64,000 nucleotides of DNA from Tenericutes bacterium MZ-XQ. GTDB lineage: Bacteria > Bacillota_I > Bacilli_A > Acholeplasmatales > Acholeplasmataceae. How positions within the stretch are numbered: position 1 is the first letter of the stretch; every line of letters begins with the position of its first letter. Made by a program: the position numbers and the translations under genes. The stretch is taken from positions 1,556,858-1,620,857 of the forward strand of contig CP017950.1 of the NCBI GenBank assembly GCA_002838205.1, in the 5' to 3' direction. Of the stretch, positions 4,114 through 31,915 are shown one piece after another. Below the pieces are notes generated by a model. The model did no database searches and was not told where the DNA came from. It saw only the letters and a list, made by a program, of their open reading frames with translations.

Positions 4114-4482
4114 TTATTGGACAGAAAATGAGAATGTTCCTGTTGGTATTCCCCAAAAGGTATTTGCTTGAATCATTATACCTTTTCGTGACCCGGCAGC
4201 ATCAATTAAAGCAACAGCTAATTGGGCTGCGTGTGCTAGAATATAAGCACTAGCTAACAAGCCTAAAACTGGGATTGAAATACCTACAGTAGCTGCGATT
4301 AAATGCACTCCCATGTAAGCGTAAGTGACTGTCATTCCTGACATCATTGCGGCACCTAAAAGTCCAACTAAGTCATTATATGATATGTAAAGTAAATCGA
4401 CAGTTCCTCCACCATTTACATCATACATTTCATCTTCAGTCATTAGTTCCCAAGAATTATCTAAAGTCATCGCGTATGTCAT
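4114..4482 (-). CDS. bacteriocin-like precursor with double-glycine leader
   Basis: A protein of about 122 residues. The leader MTYAMTLDNSWELMTEDEMYDVNGGG ends in a Gly-Gly processing site preceded by the MxDV pattern typical of leaders cut by C39-peptidase ABC exporters. The remaining ~97 residues are small-residue-rich and hydrophobic (LVGLLGAAMMSGMTV, LIAATVGISIPVLGLLASAY), as in pore-forming bacteriocins. The ATG at 4482 follows a consensus AGGAGGTGA site. The leader and 70 bp upstream are almost the same as those of the broken paralogue at 5553-5866. No C39 exporter is present in this window, so export must rely on genes elsewhere. Confidence 0.7.
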   Translation of the reverse strand: MTYAMTLDNSWELMTEDEMYDVNGGGTVDLLYISYNDLVGLLGAAMMSGMTVTYAYMGVHLIAATVGISIPVLGLLASAYILAHAAQLAVALIDAAGSRKGIMIQANTFWGIPTGTFSFSVQ

Positions 4483-4552
4483 TTTTTTCACCTCCTATTC
4501 TATCACAGATTTTCTTCATCATAAACCCTTTTCTCCTATAGATATTTACCCT
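4483..4552 (-). promoter_or_regulatory. conserved upstream region of bacteriocin-like gene, copy 1
   Basis: Seventy bases upstream of the start codon match 5867-5936 at all but a few positions, including the ribosome site AGGAGGTGA and an AT-rich promoter-like part (AAAAGGGTTTATGATGAAG, then TCTGTGATAGAA). The two bacteriocin-like genes are probably co-regulated. Confidence 0.6.
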
Positions 4553-5552: not shown

Positions 5553-5866
5553 CTAGCTTGTCATCCAATTTCCAACTGCTATTCCGAGGGATATTCCCCC
5601 AGCAACAGAAGTTGCAAAAAAACCAAGTGCAACTTTAGCACCAACTGCACCTACAAGTGCTGATACAGGTCCTAGTACCATGACTGCTGACCATCCAGCA
5701 ACCAAGATAGCACCGGCTGTTACTATGATTGCTGTAGCAATTGCAGCTATAGCTAAAGCTCCTAGTGCTGCAGCCCACCAAGGAATACTGCCCCCCCATT
5801 AACATCATACATCTCTTCTTCACTCATGAGTTCCCATGAGTTGTCTAATGTCATTGCGTATGTCAT
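5553..5866 (-). pseudogene. bacteriocin-like precursor, frameshifted in a G7 tract (possible phase variation)
   Basis: The leader reads MTYAMTLDNSWELMSEEEMYDVNGG, close to that of the gene at 4114, and starts at the ATG at 5866 after AGGAGGTGA. Immediately after the Gly-Gly codons a run of seven G (5791-5797 on this strand as C) puts the rest out of frame and stops it ten codons later. With eight G the frame continues as GSIPWWAAALGALAIAAIAT... for ~80 more residues, very hydrophobic and Gly/Ala-rich, ending in AVGNWMTS and the TAG at 5553. The downstream frame is fully open, so the defect is recent, a slippage switch, or a sequencing error. Confidence 0.7.
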
Positions 5867-6874: not shown

Positions 6875-7222
6875 ATGAATGAAAGAAAAACAAGAAAGCA
6901 TCCATCGTATACAATTGATGAGAAAAACAAGATTGTAGAACTGTATTTAAGCAAAGAGAAAACACAGCGTCAAATACTTAGAAGTTTTGATATTGTTCAT
7001 AGTCAATTAGATTTATGGGTAAAACAGTATCGAAAGCATGGCACTTGTGTAGATCGTAGAGGAAAAGGTACGAAAAAAGATATACCAAACAAAGGTAGAC
7101 CTAAGAAGCTTAACTTGGACATCATGAGTAAAGAAGAACTGTTAAAATATATCAAAAGTGGTGAAGACATAAAAAAAGCGGTAGCCTACCTAAGAACGCG
7201 CGAGAAAAATACCAAGTCATAG
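6875..7222 (+). CDS. IS3 transposase orfA (HTH)
   Basis: A 115-residue protein with an N-terminal helix-turn-helix of the IS3 OrfA type (EKNKIVELYLSKEKTQRQIL, then DIVHSQLDLWVKQY) and a charged C-terminal helix (MSKEELLKYIKSGEDIKKAV) that would mediate oligomerisation. It binds the element ends. Near its 3' end an A5 run (GAGAAAAATACC) allows a -1 slip into orfB to make the fused transposase. The site AAAGGAGTC precedes the ATG. Its translation is the same as that of the copy at 29918. Confidence 0.92.
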   Translation: MNERKTRKHPSYTIDEKNKIVELYLSKEKTQRQILRSFDIVHSQLDLWVKQYRKHGTCVDRRGKGTKKDIPNKGRPKKLNLDIMSKEELLKYIKSGEDIKKAVAYLRTREKNTKS

Positions 7223-7260
7223 ACCAATTAAAGGATCGTTATTCTATCATCTATCTCTGC

Positions 7261-8070
7261 ATGAGGATGTCATGTTCAAGAAGCGGTTACTATGAATGGA
7301 TTCGCTTAGGTAGGCCAAAATATAAAGCGTTCAATGAATTGCTTAACCATCAGATTGTTAGTCTCTACCATAAAGATAAAAGATGGGGCATAGAAACAAT
7401 TCAAATGAAATTAAAGAAAATACACGGCGTCTTTACCACGAAGAGCACCGTGTATCGATACATGAAACTGAATGGTATTCAGTCTATTATCAGACGAAAG
7501 AGAAAAAGATATAGCAAGGTCAACCATCATCGCATTCCTAATCTCCTTCAAAGAGATTTTACCACAAAAATGTCAAATCAAAAGTGGAGTATAGATGTTT
7601 CTTATTTGCCCACAACACAAGGAACCATCTATTTGTGTGCGATAAAAGATCTCTATGATAAATATATTGTCAGTTACAAAGTTTCCGAAAGAAATGATTT
7701 GAAACTAGTCATGGATACTTTAAAACAAGCAACAAGAACCGTACCCAGAAATTATCGCAAAGGATTAATACTGCATTCTGATCAAGGTACCGCATTTGTT
7801 GGACAAACTTACCATAGGTGGTTGAAAAGACATTGGATAAAACATAGTGTATCAGCAAAAGGCAGCTGCGTAGATAATTGTCCAATAGAATCTTTCTTCA
7901 GTCAATTTAAAAGTGAATGTATGCATCTTCATCATCAAATCACAATAAAACAAATGAAAACACTTGTCGATTCTTACATCACATATTACAATGAAGATAG
8001 ACAAAGTAAAATAATAAAAGAGTTGACACCTCTACAATTGAGAATGTCAACTCTTCCTAGCCTTTTTTAA
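7261..8070 (+). CDS. IS3 transposase orfB (DDE integrase core)
   Basis: A 269-residue frame, extended ~20 codons upstream in the same frame when read through the A5 slip (REKYQVIDQLKDRYSIIYLC). It carries the HTH_21-like region ([20 protein letters not shown]) and the rve catalytic core: first Asp in WSIDVSYL, second in LHSDQGTAF, Glu in [11 protein letters not shown]. It catalyses strand transfer. No nonsense codon is present, so this copy looks active. Confidence 0.93.
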   Translation: MRMSCSRSGYYEWIRLGRPKYKAFNELLNHQIVSLYHKDKRWGIETIQMKLKKIHGVFTTKSTVYRYMKLNGIQSIIRRKRKRYSKVNHHRIPNLLQRDFTTKMSNQKWSIDVSYLPTTQGTIYLCAIKDLYDKYIVSYKVSERNDLKLVMDTLKQATRTVPRNYRKGLILHSDQGTAFVGQTYHRWLKRHWIKHSVSAKGSCVDNCPIESFFSQFKSECMHLHHQITIKQMKTLVDSYITYYNEDRQSKIIKELTPLQLRMSTLPSLF

Positions 8071-17312: not shown

Positions 17313-18659
17313 TCAAAAGTTCTCTCTTGACGTTATCAATTCTTTAGTTACTCCTTTATAAATTCTGCATCGATATTCAAACAACTCAGAATCGTTCTGT
17401 TCACGAGTAATAAAACATCCCCCTTTACAAGCACCTTCTATTTCACAGTTATTACAGTTCAAAATCTCTCCAGGCAAATTACTAAGTATAAATTTTTTGT
17501 ACTCTGTGTTGAAGCATTCAGGATTAGAGATATTTGATAAAACTGTATTGGAATATCCACATGGTGAGATATCCCCATTTTGATTCACAACTATAGATTT
17601 AAAATCTAAAGCTCTGCAAAAACCTTTTCTAACATCCTGATATGAAGTTAAATTATTATATGGTCTTTTCCAGAATCCATTCACTTGAACGTTTCTCTTT
17701 TTCCCTACAAAGTAGAACTTCATTAACTTTTCCACAACTTCATCAGTACTTTTGCTCAGCGGTTTTACTAAATCGGGTTCTATAGTGATATTGTTAAACC
17801 CATTAACCTCACAAAAATCAAAAAGTTTTTTTTCATCAACATTAAAATTATCATCTGTTAAAGTGAGGTAAAAACCATATATATTTATTCCTGCCTTCTT
17901 TAGCAACCTCATACCTCCTAAAATATCATCAAATGTTCCCTCTCCATTATTATACACTCTTACAGTGTCGTTAACCATCTTATATCCATCTAAACTTAAT
18001 GATGGTTGTATATTGAAGTTCTTAAAATCAGCACATATTTCTTCGGTCAACAAAGAAGCATTGGTATTGATAAAAACATTAATTTTTATACTTGATCTAT
18101 GTTTATCAAATATAAATTGCAACACACTCTTAATCATATTCCATTCTATCAAAGGTTCACCACCAGTAAAACCAATACCTACTTCACTTTTATTGTATGT
18201 AATAGCTTGTACAATAAACCAGTCAATAAACTTAATCAATTTATCAGAATCAAATTTCGGTTTATTATATTTTTGATATTGATGTGATGCTATACAATAC
18301 TTACAACTAAAATTGCACTTATCTGTGATGCTAAAACCAATAAAATCTATGCTAGAAGCATCATTAGTTTGGTTAATAAAAGACTTATTCTCCTCTTTCA
18401 AATGCAATCTTTCATTGAAGTTGCCTTCTAATAGAATTCTATACTCCAAAAAATCCTTAATGATATCTTCTAGAATTTCCCTTTGATCATAAAGATTCAT
18501 ACTTGCTACTAAATCATCAAGTTCTTTAAGCTCATAGAAGAATTGCATTATTCGATGCTGTGTTTCATCAATAAACAGTAACTTCCCGTATAATTTATTA
18601 TAAATCATGAACCCATCATCAATTTTATAGGTTATAAGATTTTCAGATTTAATTAACAT
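17313..18659 (-). CDS. radical SAM/SPASM peptide-modifying enzyme
   Basis: 448 residues. Residues 1-~90 (NLITYKIDDGFMIYNKLYGK..., then a helical part) look like a PqqD-type RiPP recognition domain. The radical SAM cluster motif is CNFSCKYC (Cys115, 119, 122) with GFTGGEPLIEW for SAM binding. The C-terminal ~110 residues are a SPASM domain with the full cysteine set for two extra Fe-S clusters: GFCRAL, GDISPCGY, LNCNNCEIEGACKGGC, then YRC. Such enzymes form C-C or C-S crosslinks in short peptides. The site GGAAAGGAGAGG precedes the ATG. The 26-residue precursor gene lies 54 nt upstream, behind an attenuator-like hairpin. Confidence 0.9.
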   Translation of the reverse strand: MLIKSENLITYKIDDGFMIYNKLYGKLLFIDETQHRIMQFFYELKELDDLVASMNLYDQREILEDIIKDFLEYRILLEGNFNERLHLKEENKSFINQTNDASSIDFIGFSITDKCNFSCKYCIASHQYQKYNKPKFDSDKLIKFIDWFIVQAITYNKSEVGIGFTGGEPLIEWNMIKSVLQFIFDKHRSSIKINVFINTNASLLTEEICADFKNFNIQPSLSLDGYKMVNDTVRVYNNGEGTFDDILGGMRLLKKAGINIYGFYLTLTDDNFNVDEKKLFDFCEVNGFNNITIEPDLVKPLSKSTDEVVEKLMKFYFVGKKRNVQVNGFWKRPYNNLTSYQDVRKGFCRALDFKSIVVNQNGDISPCGYSNTVLSNISNPECFNTEYKKFILSNLPGEILNCNNCEIEGACKGGCFITREQNDSELFEYRCRIYKGVTKELITSRENF

Positions 18660-18677
18660 ATTCCTCTCCTTTCCGAA

Positions 18678-18702
18678 AAGAAATGCATCTAGTGCATTTC
18701 TT
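18678..18702 (-). terminator. hairpin between precursor and radical SAM gene (attenuator)
   Basis: A 10-bp stem AAGAAATGCA / TGCATTTCTT with a 5-nt loop is followed on the minus strand by TTTTC. Partial termination here would give more precursor than enzyme mRNA, which is usual in RiPP operons. Confidence 0.65.
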
Positions 18703-18713
18703 AATGAAACATG

Positions 18714-18794
18714 TCAGCAACCGCTACACCAAGTAATATTCGCTAACTCCATAGGACTACTTTGCTTAGCTTTCTTTACTTTTTTTAGTTTCAT
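18714..18794 (-). CDS. 26-residue radical-SAM RiPP precursor peptide
   Basis: This small gene encodes 26 residues: a basic leader MKLKKVKKAKQSS, then PMELANI and the core-like tail TWCSGC followed by TGA. GAGGAG lies 8 nt before the ATG. It is the first gene of the operon with the SPASM enzyme and MFS exporter. The Trp and two Cys at the very C-terminus are natural crosslink sites (Cys thioether or Trp-centred bonds). The size and Lys-rich N-terminus recall streptococcal radical-SAM peptide precursors that are controlled by peptide-sensing regulators, but the sequence is not one I recognise. Confidence 0.75.
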   Translation of the reverse strand: MKLKKVKKAKQSSPMELANITWCSGC

Positions 18795-18812
18795 AGTTAC
18801 ACTCCTCGTATA

Positions 18813-18851
18813 ATATGTAGTGTAGATTTAGGTTGATACCTTACTACATAT
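18813..18851 (-). promoter_or_regulatory. inverted repeat in precursor promoter (candidate operator)
   Basis: 9-bp arms ATATGTAGT (18813-18821) and ACTACATAT (18843-18851) lie 21 bp apart, 19-57 nt upstream of the precursor ATG. They flank a weak -35/-10 pair (TATCAA, 17 bp, TATTAT). This would suit control by a dimeric regulator such as the HTH-TPR protein at 21079. Confidence 0.5.
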
Positions 18852-18920
18852 CATTATTTATAAGTTTGAAGTCCTAGTGTTATAATTAAATCAAGATGTA
18901 ACTAGAAGAATCTGCTTCCA

Positions 18921-19103
18921 CTCCTTGCACATCATGGTGCTATTTAAGCGTGCAAACCTGCTTGATTGGCTTATCTGCTAACCGGTTGTTGTTACCCGTT
19001 AGATTTCACTCAACTTCTATGTCTAACGGTGGTTTCTTATTGGCGAGGCTGCAGTTGTCTTTCAAGGCTAGGACTTCTCTTATATCTATTTTCCCTTGAA
19101 AGA
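18921..19103 (+). ncRNA. candidate IS110 bridge (seek) RNA
   Basis: Three stems lie in the noncoding left part. TTGCAC / GTGCAA (18925-18930, 18950-18955) closes a 19-nt loop. CCGTTAGA / TCTAACGG (18996-19003, 19022-19029) closes an 18-nt loop. CTTTCAAGG / CCTTGAAAG (19059-19067, 19094-19102) runs up to the transposase ribosome site. Two large open loops upstream of the transposase are what IS110-group bridge RNAs use to pair with target and donor DNA. Confidence 0.55.
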
Positions 19104-19113
19104 AGGTGTTCTT

Positions 19114-20340
19114 TTGAATCATACTTTATGTGTTGGTATTGACGTTGCTAAACTGTCCAATCACGTTTATGCACTTAACTTTAATCGTGATAAACTTTTA
19201 TCTGTCAATATTCCTAATACCCAAGATGGTGCGAACTTAATTGAAACGCATATTTTAAAACTTCTTGATAAACATCATCTCTCTAAAGTCATTGTCATCT
19301 TAGAGTCAACTGGTGTTTACTCCGGTCATCTTGCGACCTACTTATCAGCTTCTAAGTTTTTGAGTGTTTTCGATATCAAAGTTTATCTCATCAATCCTAA
19401 AATTTCTAAAAATTATAGAAAAAGTTTTGCTGATATGGATAAAACTGATCCTAAAGATGCTTACATCTTAGCTGATATTGCTAGAGTTGGAAGAACCGAT
19501 GAGTTAACTCCCTTTAAAGGTGGTCAAAGACTTGCTTTAGAAAGACTCACAAGGCATAGACTTCATATTGCTGAAAAACTATCCAATGAGAAGGTTTATG
19601 CCCTTAATAACGTGTTTATAAAGTTTTCTAACTTTGAAACTATATTTTCTAATAACTTTGGATCAACTGCTGTTGATCTCTTATTAGATTATAAAACCAT
19701 TGATGATATTATCGATTCATCTTTAGAAGATTTATCTGACTTTGTTGCTAAATCAAGTAAAAATCGCTTTGATAATTCACTTGATATCGCTGCTAAGATC
19801 CAAAAAGCTGCTAGAGATTCTTATCGTCTTGATAAAGTTTCTTATGATCCTATTAATACAGCTCTCGCCTCATCCATAAATGTCATTAAATGTTATGAAC
19901 ATGAAATGAAAGATATTGATAAAGCCATTTTGCGACAAGTCGCTGGGTTTAATCATGATCACTATCAAATCTTAACGTCTATACCTGGTATTGGTAAAGT
20001 TTATGCAGCCGGTATCTTAGCTGAGATTGTTGATATTAGTCAGTTTGAATCCAATGATGCACTTGCTAAATATGCAGGTATTACCTGGCGTAAAAATCAA
20101 TCCGGGAAATTCACCGCTGATGAGACTTACATGACTAAAACTGGAAATAAATATTTGCGCTACTTTTTAATCCAAGCAGCCAACATGGCTAGAATTCATA
20201 TACCTGAGTATCGTGATTTTTATCATAAGAAATATGATGAAGTCACGACTCATCAACACAAACGTGCACTCGCCTTAACTGCTAGAAAACTTATTCGTCT
20301 TATCTATGGTTTGTTGAGTACCAATAGACTTTATAAGTAA
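19114..20340 (+). CDS. IS110-family transposase
   Basis: About 408 residues from a TTG start at 19114 (AGAAGGTG 5 nt upstream; another TTG at 19096 is in frame). The N-terminal RuvC-like DEDD domain shows GIDVAK (first Asp), VILESTGVYSG (Glu) and DKTDPKDAYILAD (Asp pair). A coiled middle follows, then the C-terminal Tnp domain: TSIPGIGKVYAAGILAEI, KYAGI, KTGNKYLRYFLIQAA. The position of the usual Ser-Lys before the GN..LR motif reads Thr-Lys, which I believe occurs in related Firmicute elements. The frame is intact. Confidence 0.9.
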   Translation: MNHTLCVGIDVAKLSNHVYALNFNRDKLLSVNIPNTQDGANLIETHILKLLDKHHLSKVIVILESTGVYSGHLATYLSASKFLSVFDIKVYLINPKISKNYRKSFADMDKTDPKDAYILADIARVGRTDELTPFKGGQRLALERLTRHRLHIAEKLSNEKVYALNNVFIKFSNFETIFSNNFGSTAVDLLLDYKTIDDIIDSSLEDLSDFVAKSSKNRFDNSLDIAAKIQKAARDSYRLDKVSYDPINTALASSINVIKCYEHEMKDIDKAILRQVAGFNHDHYQILTSIPGIGKVYAAGILAEIVDISQFESNDALAKYAGITWRKNQSGKFTADETYMTKTGNKYLRYFLIQAANMARIHIPEYRDFYHKKYDEVTTHQHKRALALTARKLIRLIYGLLSTNRLYK

Positions 20341-20378
20341 AACTTAATTAGATTAATTCTTATAACTTTTACTTTTTT

Positions 20379-20406
20379 AAGCATGTCTTTAAATGATGCT
20401 TTTTAT
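20379..20406 (+). terminator. terminator after IS110 transposase
   Basis: A 6-bp stem AAGCAT / ATGCTT with an 11-nt loop is followed by TTTTATT, 38 nt after the transposase stop codon. Confidence 0.5.
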
Positions 20407-20486
20407 TAAATTTTACTCGTTTTTTATATTTTTAGTGCTTGACATCTTTACCGGTTGCTTTCTTATTTATTTGAAGTAGCTAACCC

Positions 20487-20865: not shown

Positions 20866-21000
20866 TTATGGTCGAGGACTTGGAGATGAAACTGAAGTGA
20901 TGTCCTCCCCGTCTGCGTTCACCTTTATATTACTATTCATATTGATAAGGCATAACAGAGATAGTATTATAATCAAGAAATATAAGATTTTCTTTTTCAT
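20866..21000 (-). CDS. secreted pheromone-like peptide precursor
   Basis: A 44-residue protein: MKKKILYFLIIILSLLCLIN is a classic signal sequence, followed by a polar part (NADGEDITSV) and the small, proline-rich C-terminus SSPSPRP. GAGGAGGAAGTT directly precedes the ATG at 21000. It is divergent from, and 78 bp away from, an HTH-TPR regulator. That is the layout of PapR/PlcR- and Phr-like pairs, in which the secreted and re-imported C-terminal fragment binds the regulator. The sequence of the mature signal is inference. Confidence 0.65.
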   Translation of the reverse strand: MKKKILYFLIIILSLLCLINMNSNIKVNADGEDITSVSSPSPRP

Positions 21001-21078: not shown

Positions 21079-22014
21079 ATGAAAGAAAGTCAAAAATATG
21101 CAATACATCTTGATAATTTAAGAATAAAGAACAAACTTACTATTGATGATTTTTGTGAGGACATTGTTGATATTAGAACATTTCATAGATATAAATCTGG
21201 ACAAAGATCTCTTAAGCATCCCAAAATATCTGCATTTTGTAAAAAACTTAAGATTAGCACTGTGGATTTCTATTACAGTGCAAGCAAACAAGATGTTTAT
21301 GAATTTCAAAGAATTAACAATCTATACAGTTTAATTATAAATAGAAATTATCAACTATTTTATGAACAATCAAGCACCTTGAAACTCAACAGTATTGTTG
21401 AAGAGCAAAATAAAAGATTTTTAGGGTTTTGCTACTGTAAAGCTGACTACGAGACTAACAGTACTCCACTTCAAGAAATCTTATTAAAACTATATAAACT
21501 CTGTAACTATCCAAACTGTTTAGCCTTTTTCGCTTTCGACTTCGTGAGCTTAATATCTTTACAGTTGATTGCAGAGATTGAAATCAAGACTAATAAGGTC
21601 CTAGCACTTAATAAGTTAATAAATATCCTCTACGATATTGAAGTAACATATACTAGTTCAGAAACAAGCAAAATTCTTCCTTCCATCTTCTCTAACACAT
21701 CACTTTTCTTATTAAGATTGCACAAACATAAAGAAGCTAAACATATCTCTTCAATAGGTATTGAATATTCAATTAAACATTCAGACTTTAGTGGCTTAGC
21801 TCATCTGTACTATGTTCAGTCTTACTCAAACTTAATTTTAGGTAATAGACTTGATGCTGAAAAGTATGCAAACTTATGCATAATTACATCAATTGCAAAA
21901 AAGAATGATTATGAGATTAACATGTTCATTAATACAATAAAAAAGGACTTAGAAATGAGTCCTATACAGTTATATAATAAATGTATTGAAGATATCAATA
22001 GAGACATTAAATAG
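21079..22014 (+). CDS. HTH-TPR transcriptional regulator (RRNPP/Rgg-like)
   Basis: 311 residues. Residues 1-65 are a helix-turn-helix (LRIKNKLTIDDFCEDIVDIR, TFHRYKSGQRSLKHPKISAF). The rest is a helical array with TPR-like pairs (LHKHKEAKHISSIGIEYS; GLAHLYYVQSYSNLILGNRL; DAEKYANLCIITSI). Such regulators sense short intracellular peptides. AGGGAGAG precedes the ATG. The divergent neighbour encodes a signal-peptide-bearing 44-mer, the presumed ligand. A strong terminator follows. The gene is probably a controller of the radical-SAM operon at 16-19 kb. Confidence 0.75.
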   Translation: MKESQKYAIHLDNLRIKNKLTIDDFCEDIVDIRTFHRYKSGQRSLKHPKISAFCKKLKISTVDFYYSASKQDVYEFQRINNLYSLIINRNYQLFYEQSSTLKLNSIVEEQNKRFLGFCYCKADYETNSTPLQEILLKLYKLCNYPNCLAFFAFDFVSLISLQLIAEIEIKTNKVLALNKLINILYDIEVTYTSSETSKILPSIFSNTSLFLLRLHKHKEAKHISSIGIEYSIKHSDFSGLAHLYYVQSYSNLILGNRLDAEKYANLCIITSIAKKNDYEINMFINTIKKDLEMSPIQLYNKCIEDINRDIK

Positions 22015-28418: not shown

Positions 28419-28461
28419 ATAAATGGCAATCATAAATAATGACTGCCAAAGGAGGCTTATC

Positions 28462-29835
28462 ATGAACTTTACACAAATGGAAGACTATAACAACGACCCC
28501 AAAGTTCTTGAGAAATTTGGACGTAATATTGTTGATGAGGTCAAAAAAGGTAAAATTGATCCAGTCATCGGTAGAGAAGATGAGATTAGAAGAGTTATCA
28601 AAATACTATCACGAAAAACAAAAAATAATCCTGTATTAATCGGTGAACCAGGTGTTGGTAAAACCGCAATCGTAGAAGGCCTTGCAAGACGTATTGTTGA
28701 TAAAGACGTTCCCCTAGGATTACAAAATAAGATCATCTATGAACTTGATCTAGCTGCGCTTGTCGCTGGTGCTAAGTTCAGAGGTGAATTTGAAGAAAGA
28801 CTTAAAGCTGTATTAAAGAAAATCAAGGACTCAAACGGTGAAATCATACTTTTCATCGATGAAATACATGCGATCGTAGGCGCAGGACGAGTTGATGGTG
28901 CTATGGATGCATCTAACATGTTAAAACCGATGCTTGCACGTGGTGAACTGCATTGTGTTGGAGCAACCACACTAAACGAATACCGAAAATACATCGAAAA
29001 AGATTCTGCACTCGAAAGACGCTTCCAAAAAGTCTTGATTGAAGAACCTACTGTTCTAGATACCATTAGTATCTTAAGAGGCCTTAAATCAAGATTTGAA
29101 GCCCATCATGGTGTGCATATATCTGACCCAGCGATTATCGCTGCTTCTACTTTATCAAATCGTTATATCACTGATCGTTTCTTACCAGATAAAGCGATTG
29201 ATCTTATAGATGAAGCTTGTGCTTCTATTCGTATGGAAATTGATTCTATGCCTGTAGAACTCGATGATGTCACAAGAAAAATCATGCAACTAGAAATCGA
29301 AAAAACTGCACTGGATAAAGAATCTGATCCCATATCAAAAGATCGTTTAAAAAAAATCAAAGAAGAAATCGACACTTTGAAAAAAGAAGAAAAAGATTTG
29401 CGAAAGCAATGGGAAGCAGAAAAAGAACAAATCAATGCCATTAAAATTAAGAAAAACGAACTTGAGCAATTACGCGTTGATTTACAAAATGCTTTTAATG
29501 ATAACAATTATCAACGAGCTGCTGAGCTACAATACAGTAAAATTCCAGAGTTAGAAAAGAAAATCAACGAGATGTCCGAAGAAGGTTCAAAAGAAGGTAA
29601 ATTATTAACTGAAGTTGTTAGCGAGGAAAGCATTGCAGAAATCGTTTCTAAATGGACACATATCCCAATCACAAAACTCATGTCAGGTGATAAAGAAAAG
29701 CTTCTACACCTTGAAGAAACCTTGAAGAATCGCGTGATTGGACAAGATCATGCAATTCGTCTAATCAGTGATGCAATCATCCGTCAAAGAGCTGGTATCA
29801 AAGATGAAAACAGACCGATGAAACTATTTGATTAA
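28462..29835 (+). pseudogene. clpB: clpB disaggregase, 5' part, interrupted by IS3
   Basis: ATG at 28462 after AAGGAGG. The protein begins directly with the first AAA+ domain ([20 protein letters not shown]); the usual ~140-residue N-domain is absent. Walker [10 protein letters not shown], Walker [12 protein letters not shown] and the arginine finger region are intact. The coiled middle domain follows, then the start of the second AAA+ domain ([20 protein letters not shown]). The native frame ends at ~29819 where the IS3 begins; the last residues, KLFD, come from the element. The second Walker A lies on the other side, so this fragment alone cannot be a working ClpB. Confidence 0.93.
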
Positions 29836-29917
29836 AACGGACAACTTAAAAAAAGGCTAGGACATAGTATAGTGTTCTAGCTTTTTTTGTTAGAATGAAT
29901 ATAAAGGAGTCGTTAGA

Positions 29918-30265
29918 ATGAATGAAAGAAAAACAAGAAAGCATCCATCGTATACAATTGATGAGAAAAACAAGATTGTAGAACTGTATTTAAGCAAAGA
30001 GAAAACACAGCGTCAAATACTTAGAAGTTTTGATATTGTTCATAGTCAATTAGATTTATGGGTAAAACAGTATCGAAAGCATGGCACTTGTGTAGATCGT
30101 AGAGGAAAAGGTACGAAAAAAGATATACCAAACAAAGGTAGACCTAAGAAGCTTAACTTGGACATCATGAGTAAAGAAGAACTGTTAAAATATATCAAAA
30201 GTGGTGAAGACATAAAAAAAGCGGTAGCCTACCTAAGAACGCGCGAGAAAAATACCAAGTCATAG
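29918..30265 (+). CDS. IS3 transposase orfA, copy 2
   Basis: The translation matches that of the orfA at 6875-7222: helix-turn-helix, basic middle (RRGKGTKKDIPNKGRPKK) and C-terminal leucine-containing helix. It has the same A5 slip site near its end and the same ribosome site. Confidence 0.92.
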   Translation: MNERKTRKHPSYTIDEKNKIVELYLSKEKTQRQILRSFDIVHSQLDLWVKQYRKHGTCVDRRGKGTKKDIPNKGRPKKLNLDIMSKEELLKYIKSGEDIKKAVAYLRTREKNTKS

Positions 30266-30303
30266 ACCAATTAAAGGATCGTTATTCTATCATCTATCTC
30301 TGC

Positions 30304-31113
30304 ATGAGGATGTCATGTTCAAGAAGCGGTTACTATGAATGGATTCGCTTAGGTAGGCCAAAATATAAAGCGTTCAATGAATTGCTTAACCATCAGATTG
30401 TTAGTCTCTACCATAAAGATAAAAGATGGGGCATAGAAACAATTCAAATGAAATTAAAGAAAATACACGGCGTCTTTACCACGAAGAGCACCGTGTATCG
30501 ATACATGAAACTGAATGGTATTCAGTCTATTATCAGACGAAAGAGAAAAAGATATAGCAAGGTCAACCATCATCGCATTCCTAATCTCCTTCAAAGAGAT
30601 TTTACCACAAAAATGTCAAATCAAAAGTGGAGTATAGATGTTTCTTATTTGCCCACAACACAAGGAACCATCTATTTGTGTGCGATAAAAGATCTCTATG
30701 ATAAATATATTGTCAGTTACAAAGTTTCCGAAAGAAATGATTTGAAACTAGTCATGGATACTTTAAAACAAGCAACAAGAACCGTACCCAGAAATTATCG
30801 CAAAGGATTAATACTGCATTCTGATCAAGGTACCGCATTTGTTGGACAAACTTACCATAGGTGGTTGAAAAGACATTGGATAAAACATAGTGTATCAGCA
30901 AAAGGCAGCTGCGTAGATAATTGTCCAATAGAATCTTTCTTCAGTCAATTTAAAAGTGAATGTATGCATCTTCATCATCAAATCACAATAAAACAAATGA
31001 AAACACTTGTCGATTCTTACATCACATATTACAATGAAGATAGACAAAGTAAAATAATAAAAGAGTTGACACCTCTACAATTGAGAATGTCAACTCTTCC
31101 TAGCCTTTTTTAA
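30304..31113 (+). CDS. IS3 transposase orfB, copy 2
   Basis: The translation matches that of the orfB at 7261-8070, with the same DDE catalytic residues (WSIDVS, HSDQG, PIESFF). The lack of difference between the copies shows recent transposition. Confidence 0.93.
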
Positions 31114-31141
31114 TTACTGTCCATATTTAGCAAACAGTTTC

Positions 31142-31915
31142 ATTGGATCATTTATGTTTTTAGGTCCAACAGGTGTTGGTAAAACCGAAGTGGCTCGATC
31201 ACTTGCTGAAGCATTATTTGATAGCGAACATCAAATCATTAGAATTGATATGAGTGAGTATATGGAATCACACAGTGTTTCTAGACTCATTGGTTCTCCT
31301 CCTGGTTATGTAGGATATGATGAAGGTGGTCAACTGACTGAAGCTGTTCGTAGAAAACCTTATTCAATTATTCTATTTGATGAAATCGAGAAAGCTCATC
31401 CAGAAGTTTTCAATATACTCCTTCAAATACTAGATGATGGTAGACTAACTGATAATCAAGGAAGAACAATTGATTTTAAAAACACAATCATCATATTAAC
31501 ATCTAATATTGGTAGTGAGTTTTTACTAAGAAATGATGCTGACGCTCAAAAGGAAGTACAAAACTTAGTGAAATCTAAATTTAAACCTGAGTTTTTGAAT
31601 CGTATAGATGAGCAAATAATATTTAATCCTCTTGGACTTAAAGTTCAAATCGAAATAGCGCTTAAGATGTTAAACGACTTAAAGAAACGCTTGTTAGAAA
31701 AGAATATTATGATGAACTTTGATGAGTCTATCCAAAAATACGTAATTAAGCACGGATATAATGATGAATATGGCGCAAGACCACTTAAACGCTATATTCA
31801 AAGACATATCGAGACGCTTATCGCAACCAAAATCATTGATGGTTCAATAGAACCTCATCAAAAATATTCACTCACAGTAAAAGATGATGAACTTGCATTA
31901 ATTAAGGACAATTAA
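31142..31915 (+). pseudogene. clpB: clpB disaggregase, 3' part
   Basis: It resumes in the second AAA+ domain with [20 protein letters not shown] (Walker A) and continues through [13 protein letters not shown] (pore loop), [18 protein letters not shown] (Walker B), the sensor region [10 protein letters not shown], and the C-terminal small domain ([20 protein letters not shown]). All expected motifs are present up to the stop at 31915. Any product from the ATG at 31154 would lack its first domain. The gene was whole until the recent IS3 insertion. Confidence 0.92.

Follow-up and report, generated by a model that had tools for sequence, protein, structure and literature searches.

In streptococci, operons for radical S-adenosylmethionine (SAM) ribosomally synthesized and post-translationally modified peptides (RaS-RiPPs), which consist of a precursor gene, a radical-SAM enzyme and a transporter, are controlled by Rgg/SHP switches (PMC13361665, PMC7564271). 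Here, we describe a locus of comparable layout in a 64,000-nucleotide stretch of the Tenericutes bacterium MZ-XQ genome (the window; contig CP017950.1, positions 1,556,858 to 1,620,857). At its centre is a 26-codon open reading frame (ORF) that is probably the gene of a radical-SAM RiPP precursor with a leader, its own maturase and an exporter, and that formerly adjoined a quorum-sensing module. As in the streptococcal systems (streptide, tryglysin and others), the tiny gene is placed directly ahead of a radical-SAM enzyme and a transporter, and an RRNPP regulator stands divergent from a pheromone gene beside the cluster. The host is not a streptococcus, however, and the candidate pheromone is a 44-residue peptide of the signal-peptide type instead of a short hydrophobic SHP. 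An additional gene for a 93-residue protein is present, and the switch is now separated from the cluster by an insertion sequence (IS). The C-terminal motif TWCSGC is not among the 16 named RaS-RiPP core motifs in PMC13361665, and the cluster belongs to none of the 16 named subfamilies, which it resembles in layout. Its placement as a radical-SAM RiPP is supported by the evidence below.

On the minus strand, the interval 18714–18794 translates into MKLKKVKKAKQSSPMELANITWCSGC followed by a stop codon; the plus strand of this interval carries stops. A sequence-only reading had proposed a precursor gene here, and its coordinates stand while the strand is corrected to minus. The 26 codons, the lysine-rich leader and the TWCSGC end that it described are all seen in the translation, in which six of the first ten residues are lysines and the TWCSGC terminus is the candidate core. 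The ribosome site reads GAGGAGTG-TAACT-ATG, with the GGAGTG Shine–Dalgarno (SD) sequence 5 nt from the start codon. It is well formed, as had been claimed, yet upstream of GGAGTG the sequence belongs to an IS110-family element, which ends here, and is not native context. Chance was assessed on the native intergenic stretch of 177 nt, which was restored approximately and dinucleotide-shuffled 5000 times; the restoration kept two to three extra junction bases that are immaterial to the test. An SD-led ATG ORF of at least 26 amino acids arose in four of these shuffles, and one of at least 20 amino acids in 11. The whole window contains 37 SD-led ATG ORFs, 28 of them at least 100 amino acids long. 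The 26-codon ORF is therefore supported as a genuine gene, beyond chance expectation.

The gap from its stop codon to the start of the radical-SAM gene is 54 nt and contains a hairpin, which begins 11 nt past the stop. The hairpin predicted ahead of the enzyme gene by the sequence-only reading was recovered with a ΔG of −11.9 kcal/mol (z = −4.4), and none of 200 shuffles was equally stable. It is probably a partial terminator or attenuator, or the 3′ end of an mRNA. An SD-led ORF, a hairpin, a radical-SAM enzyme with a RiPP recognition element (RRE) and a SPASM domain, and a major facilitator superfamily (MFS) transporter all run in one direction, and together they support the earlier assignment to a RiPP precursor.

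Table 1. Features of the candidate RaS-RiPP locus and its surroundings (positions in the window).
Feature	Position	Strand	Remarks
Putative MFS exporter, 389 aa	16124..17293	−	Start 19 nt past enzyme stop
Radical-SAM/SPASM peptide maturase (predicted), 448 aa, N-terminal RRE-like domain	17313..18659	−	
SD AAGGAG of enzyme gene	18666..18671	−	
Hairpin between precursor and enzyme genes, 10 bp stem, 5 nt loop, then UUUUC	18678..18702	−	
Candidate precursor peptide gene, 26 aa, MKLKKVKKAKQSSPMELANITWCSGC	18714..18794	−	ORF, SD, shuffle test
SD GGAGTG of precursor gene, target-derived (native), at left end of IS110 insertion	18800..18805	−	
IS110-family element, inserted in precursor SD	18806..20458	+	Transposase 19096–20340; seven other near-identical copies
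Helical protein, 93 aa	20487..20768	−	In other genomes, homologs adjoin RRNPP-like regulators
Candidate pheromone precursor, 44 aa, signal peptide, SD-led, MKKKILYFLIIILSLLCLINMNSNIKVNADGEDITSVSSPSPRP	20866..21000	−	
Divergent regulator, 311 aa, RRNPP (PlcR/Rgg) family, helix–turn–helix (HTH) and tetratricopeptide repeats (TPR)	21079..22014	+	

The insertion itself provides a second, independent line of evidence for the tiny ORF as a genuine gene, since it was hit in the same way as genuine genes are. The transposase contains the domains PF01548 (DEDD; 6.7e-27) and PF02371 (Transposase_20; 1.3e-23), which assign the element to the IS110 family, and a genome search returned seven further near-identical copies (L064–L070 in genome G000). 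All eight copies have the same end located 11–15 nt ahead of a start codon, and seven of these start codons belong to long genes. As judged from names read from the sequences, the other copies precede metK (S-adenosylmethionine synthetase), thrS and tyrS (threonyl- and tyrosyl-tRNA synthetases), and the remaining four precede dehydrogenase-like, HD-type, EEP-type and peptidase-E-like genes. The empty thrS site of a sister species (G023) reads TTTAAAAAAGGAGTGGGAAA-ATG and the occupied site in the genome of the window reads TTTAAAAAGC-IS-CGAGGAGTGGGAAA-ATG. At the level of sequence, this comparison shows that the element splits an A-rich GGAGTG SD, with GGAGTG staying with the gene. Because the empty site places GGAGTG in the target, the tiny ORF retained its native SD, and by analogy with thrS its original start would have read AAGAAA-GGAGTG-TAACT-ATG. 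The idea that the SD is mere IS sequence, and the ORF an artefact, was dropped, as the sister thrS site assigns GGAGTG to the target. The element recognizes a sequence and not genes as such; about half of the AAGGAG sites in the window are away from the starts of ORFs of at least 100 amino acids, and the other IS insertions are found at such starts in seven of seven cases. Entry of an IS110-family element at gene starts is known from IS900-type insertions. The present element shares this preference for gene starts and differs in that it targets the SD GGAGTG, which after restoration is oriented toward the gene. IS900 is itself a member of the IS110 family (PMC8141618).

Three of the copies separate genes from regulatory RNAs: metK is cut from a SAM riboswitch (L064; RF00162, 1.6e-6), thrS from a T-box (L066; RF00230, 3.8e-20) and tyrS from a T-box (L068; 4.3e-17). 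As a single thrS was found in the genome, expression of this gene must either run past the IS or start within it. A lone left end of the element of about 52 bp (87%) is situated 15 nt ahead of the start of an APC-type transporter (L071; G000:C1:1401395–1401447) and is either an IS remnant or a look-alike.

The enzyme carries the CxxxCxxC motif as Cys115, Cys119 and Cys122 and matches Pfam Radical_SAM (1.5e-18). Its set of SPASM cysteines is complete (Cys348, Cys367, Cys402, Cys405, Cys411, Cys415 and Cys431), with the pattern C348-x13-G-x4-C367 ... C402-x2-C405-x5-C411-x3-C415 ... C431, and every one of these cysteines is common to TigE; the Pfam SPASM match itself is below the cut-off. In NCBIfam, the enzyme is most similar to models of peptide maturases (PapB with 120.1 bits, QhpD-type with 105, CcpM with 100, then YhhB and SCIFF), and each listed match to a named maturase family (SCIFF, QhpD, CcpM, YhhB, XyeB, streptide KxxxW and others) is below its curated cut-off. 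Matches of the enzyme to viperins in PADLOC reflect the common radical-SAM core only.

The only full-length solved relative is TigE from Paramaledivibacter caminithermalis (8vpo), which is matched by sequence over residues 9–447 (E = 1.3e-36) at 29% identity. A structure model of the enzyme built with 17 sequences (pLDDT 78) matches TigE over residues 1–448 (Z = 32.5) and the SCIFF maturase CteB over residues 5–447 (Z = 26). This full-length alignment, which starts within residues 1–5 for both proteins, includes the N-terminal RRE region; residues 2–78 of the model adopt an RRE-like fold of strands, three helices and a strand. A TigE relative was present in the alignment used for modelling, so that the structural match is supportive and not fully independent. 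A first model built without an alignment was poor (pLDDT 49), and its matches were left unused except for identifying 8vpo as TigE. The MFS protein is probably the exporter of the product.

Comparison with individual systems brings out what is particular to this cluster. A TigE relative in Maledivibacter is accompanied by a precursor with TIGSVS repeats and by a second radical-SAM enzyme, neither of which is found in the window. The thioether-forming PapB ranthipeptide maturases (NF047865) provide the best NCBIfam match, but the score of 120.1 bits compares with a cut-off of 340 bits, which excludes the enzyme from the family, and the precursor lacks the Cys-x3-Asp/Glu repeats. An independent case supports the reading of the layout: plasmid p8 of Sarcina sp. 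JB2 (L038) has an SD-led 20-residue ORF, a hairpin, a radical-SAM gene and an MFS gene in the same order; there, the enzyme is about 26% identical and the peptide MKLIGKSGLEVDSICGVQIG has no core in common with ours. This unannotated ORF (L038:2309–2371, with an SD) is a second tiny candidate RiPP precursor.

Protein search of genome contigs revealed no ortholog of the enzyme, and a contig search with a designed alignment returned only TigE-type proteins at 27–29% identity and weaker matches. None was found in 160 genomes of the order, 395 of the class and 392 of the phylum, where the best matches reach about 1e-22 at 25–30% identity and several of them are SCIFF-like by their neighbours and N-termini, nor in viral contigs, plasmids or phages. 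The enzyme was also not found in four other genomes of the same genus, consistent with either acquisition by transfer or loss from the other genomes. The MFS protein has no plasmid match, and WCSGC has no text match in the literature searched.

On the far side of the insertion lies a quorum-sensing module. Against the PDB, a profile of the regulator made from six sequences matches PlcR at 2.9e-9 and Rgg at about 1e-4, and the HTH and TPR regions homologous to PlcR/Rgg, together with an adjacent gene for a secreted propeptide, place it in the RRNPP family. The three-gene module of regulator, secreted peptide and 93-residue protein also occurs in G010, G012 and G151, and the regulator is found together with a 93-residue-like protein in G150 and G154. 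The counterparts of the candidate pheromone gene in relatives (L088, L132, L133 and L084) encode peptides with a common C-terminal pattern, for example DLPYVIE, RLPYVIG and DLPIVVE, from which the window copy differs (SSPSPRP). In G155 and G156 a related regulator is located ahead of a non-ribosomal peptide synthetase gene. The module thus travels with differing cargo, which here was the peptide cluster. Before the insertion, about 26 nt separated the stop codon of the 93-residue protein gene from the precursor SD downstream of it. The native position of the tiny gene was thus directly behind the module, from which the IS now separates it; this order, as in the streptococcal RaS-RiPPs, supports the precursor reading. 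PlcR/Rgg-like regulators occur in 39 of the 160 genomes of the order (1e-6), and these loci (L084, L085, L088, L132, L133, L134 and L135) show divergent secreted peptides with a DLPYV-like end and a partner protein of 93–99 residues. The 93-residue protein of the window has a PADLOC match to spbK (PDLC03825; 1.2e-9).

In the pathway that we propose, roughly the first half of the peptide (MKLKKVKKAKQSSP...) would serve as the leader and be bound by the RRE domain of the maturase. The C-terminal part ending in TWCSGC would form the core, in which the enzyme would forge one or two thioethers that link Cys23 and/or Cys26 with a residue close by. A protease encoded elsewhere would cleave off the leader, after which the MFS protein would export the short ring peptide. 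In its native state, the operon would have been read from the pheromone switch formed by the regulator, the secreted peptide and the 93-residue protein. Later, the SD-targeting element would have inserted between the gene for the latter and the precursor gene, severing the operon from its switch while GGAGTG was kept. A thioether within TWCSGC is the most likely chemistry as judged from the sequences, because most of the named models that score best (PapB, QhpD-type, SCIFF) form thioethers and two cysteines are available in the core, although family scores so far below the cut-offs do not fix the chemistry.

The cysteines might instead remain free or form a disulfide, with the enzyme making a Trp-centred C–C or C–O ring (a cyclophane, a Lys–Trp or an ether link) or another change of the backbone. 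Trp22 adjoins the cysteines, the weaker family matches of the enzyme include cyclophane makers of the YhhB type, and RaS-RiPPs with Lys–Trp or ether links are known (PMC13361665). Among named families, the enzyme nevertheless matches mainly thioether-forming maturases most strongly, even if all are too far below the cut-offs for the chemistry to be read from them, and two cysteines within six residues are what a thioether maker would need. We consider such a non-thioether product unlikely. Much less probable is a role as a translated regulatory leader peptide, where translation and the hairpin would control expression of the enzyme and no substrate is made. Attenuators are arranged in this way, with a short ORF and then a hairpin ahead of a structural gene, and the sole Trp codon and both Cys codons are at the end of the ORF. 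However, tandem regulatory codons are absent, and for the hairpin, 11 nt past the stop, no alternative antiterminator pairing was noted. An enzyme of this kind must have a substrate, for which the operon offers no other candidate, and a hairpin after the tiny ORF is also present in the Sarcina cluster. Hairpins behind precursor genes are common in RiPP operons.

The lowest probability is given to a chance frame, with the true peptide or protein substrate lost or encoded elsewhere. No homolog of the peptide was found and part of its apparent leader context is IS sequence, but the frequency of four in 5000 shuffles argues against it, as do the target-derived GGAGTG (from the sister thrS site) and the position of the seven other IS copies, all before start codons of long genes. 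Moreover, 30 W-C-x-G-C-stop sites were inspected across the 160 genomes of the order, and only at the tiny ORF does the motif end a reading frame that has a start codon and at least 12 residues. Several results do weigh against a functional RaS-RiPP precursor gene. The peptide has no plasmid match and matches no precursor family model, and with no ortholog of enzyme or precursor in the collections searched there is no conservation evidence for it. The cluster contains no protease gene. A promoter and terminator scan gave nothing above shuffles and, at the end of the IS, no clear promoter directed outward. The insertion may have altered or lowered expression of the cluster.

Elsewhere in the window, two bacteriocin-like peptides with double-glycine leaders are encoded on the minus strand at 4114–4491 and 5762–5866 (...NSWELMTEDEMYDVNGG and ...NSWELMSEEEMYDVNGG, respectively). 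According to the ORF list, a ClpC/ClpB-like ATPase gene (28423–31915) is apparently split by an IS3-type element (29918–31113), both ORF products of which are identical to those at 6875–8070.

The precursor reading of the 26-codon gene can be taken further, to a new class of quorum-controlled radical-SAM peptides near the wall-less bacteria, with a crosslinked Trp-Cys-x-x-Cys C-terminus, a maturase of no named family and a control severed by an SD-reading IS; we advance this tentatively and on balance lean against it. If the precursor reading is true, the cluster contributes a novel core motif together with a maturase that belongs to no named family, and it extends the streptococcal layout of pheromone and radical-SAM peptide to another order, the Acholeplasmatales. 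Insertion elements that target SD sequences would moreover mark start codons naturally and could lend support to genes that are too short for gene callers.
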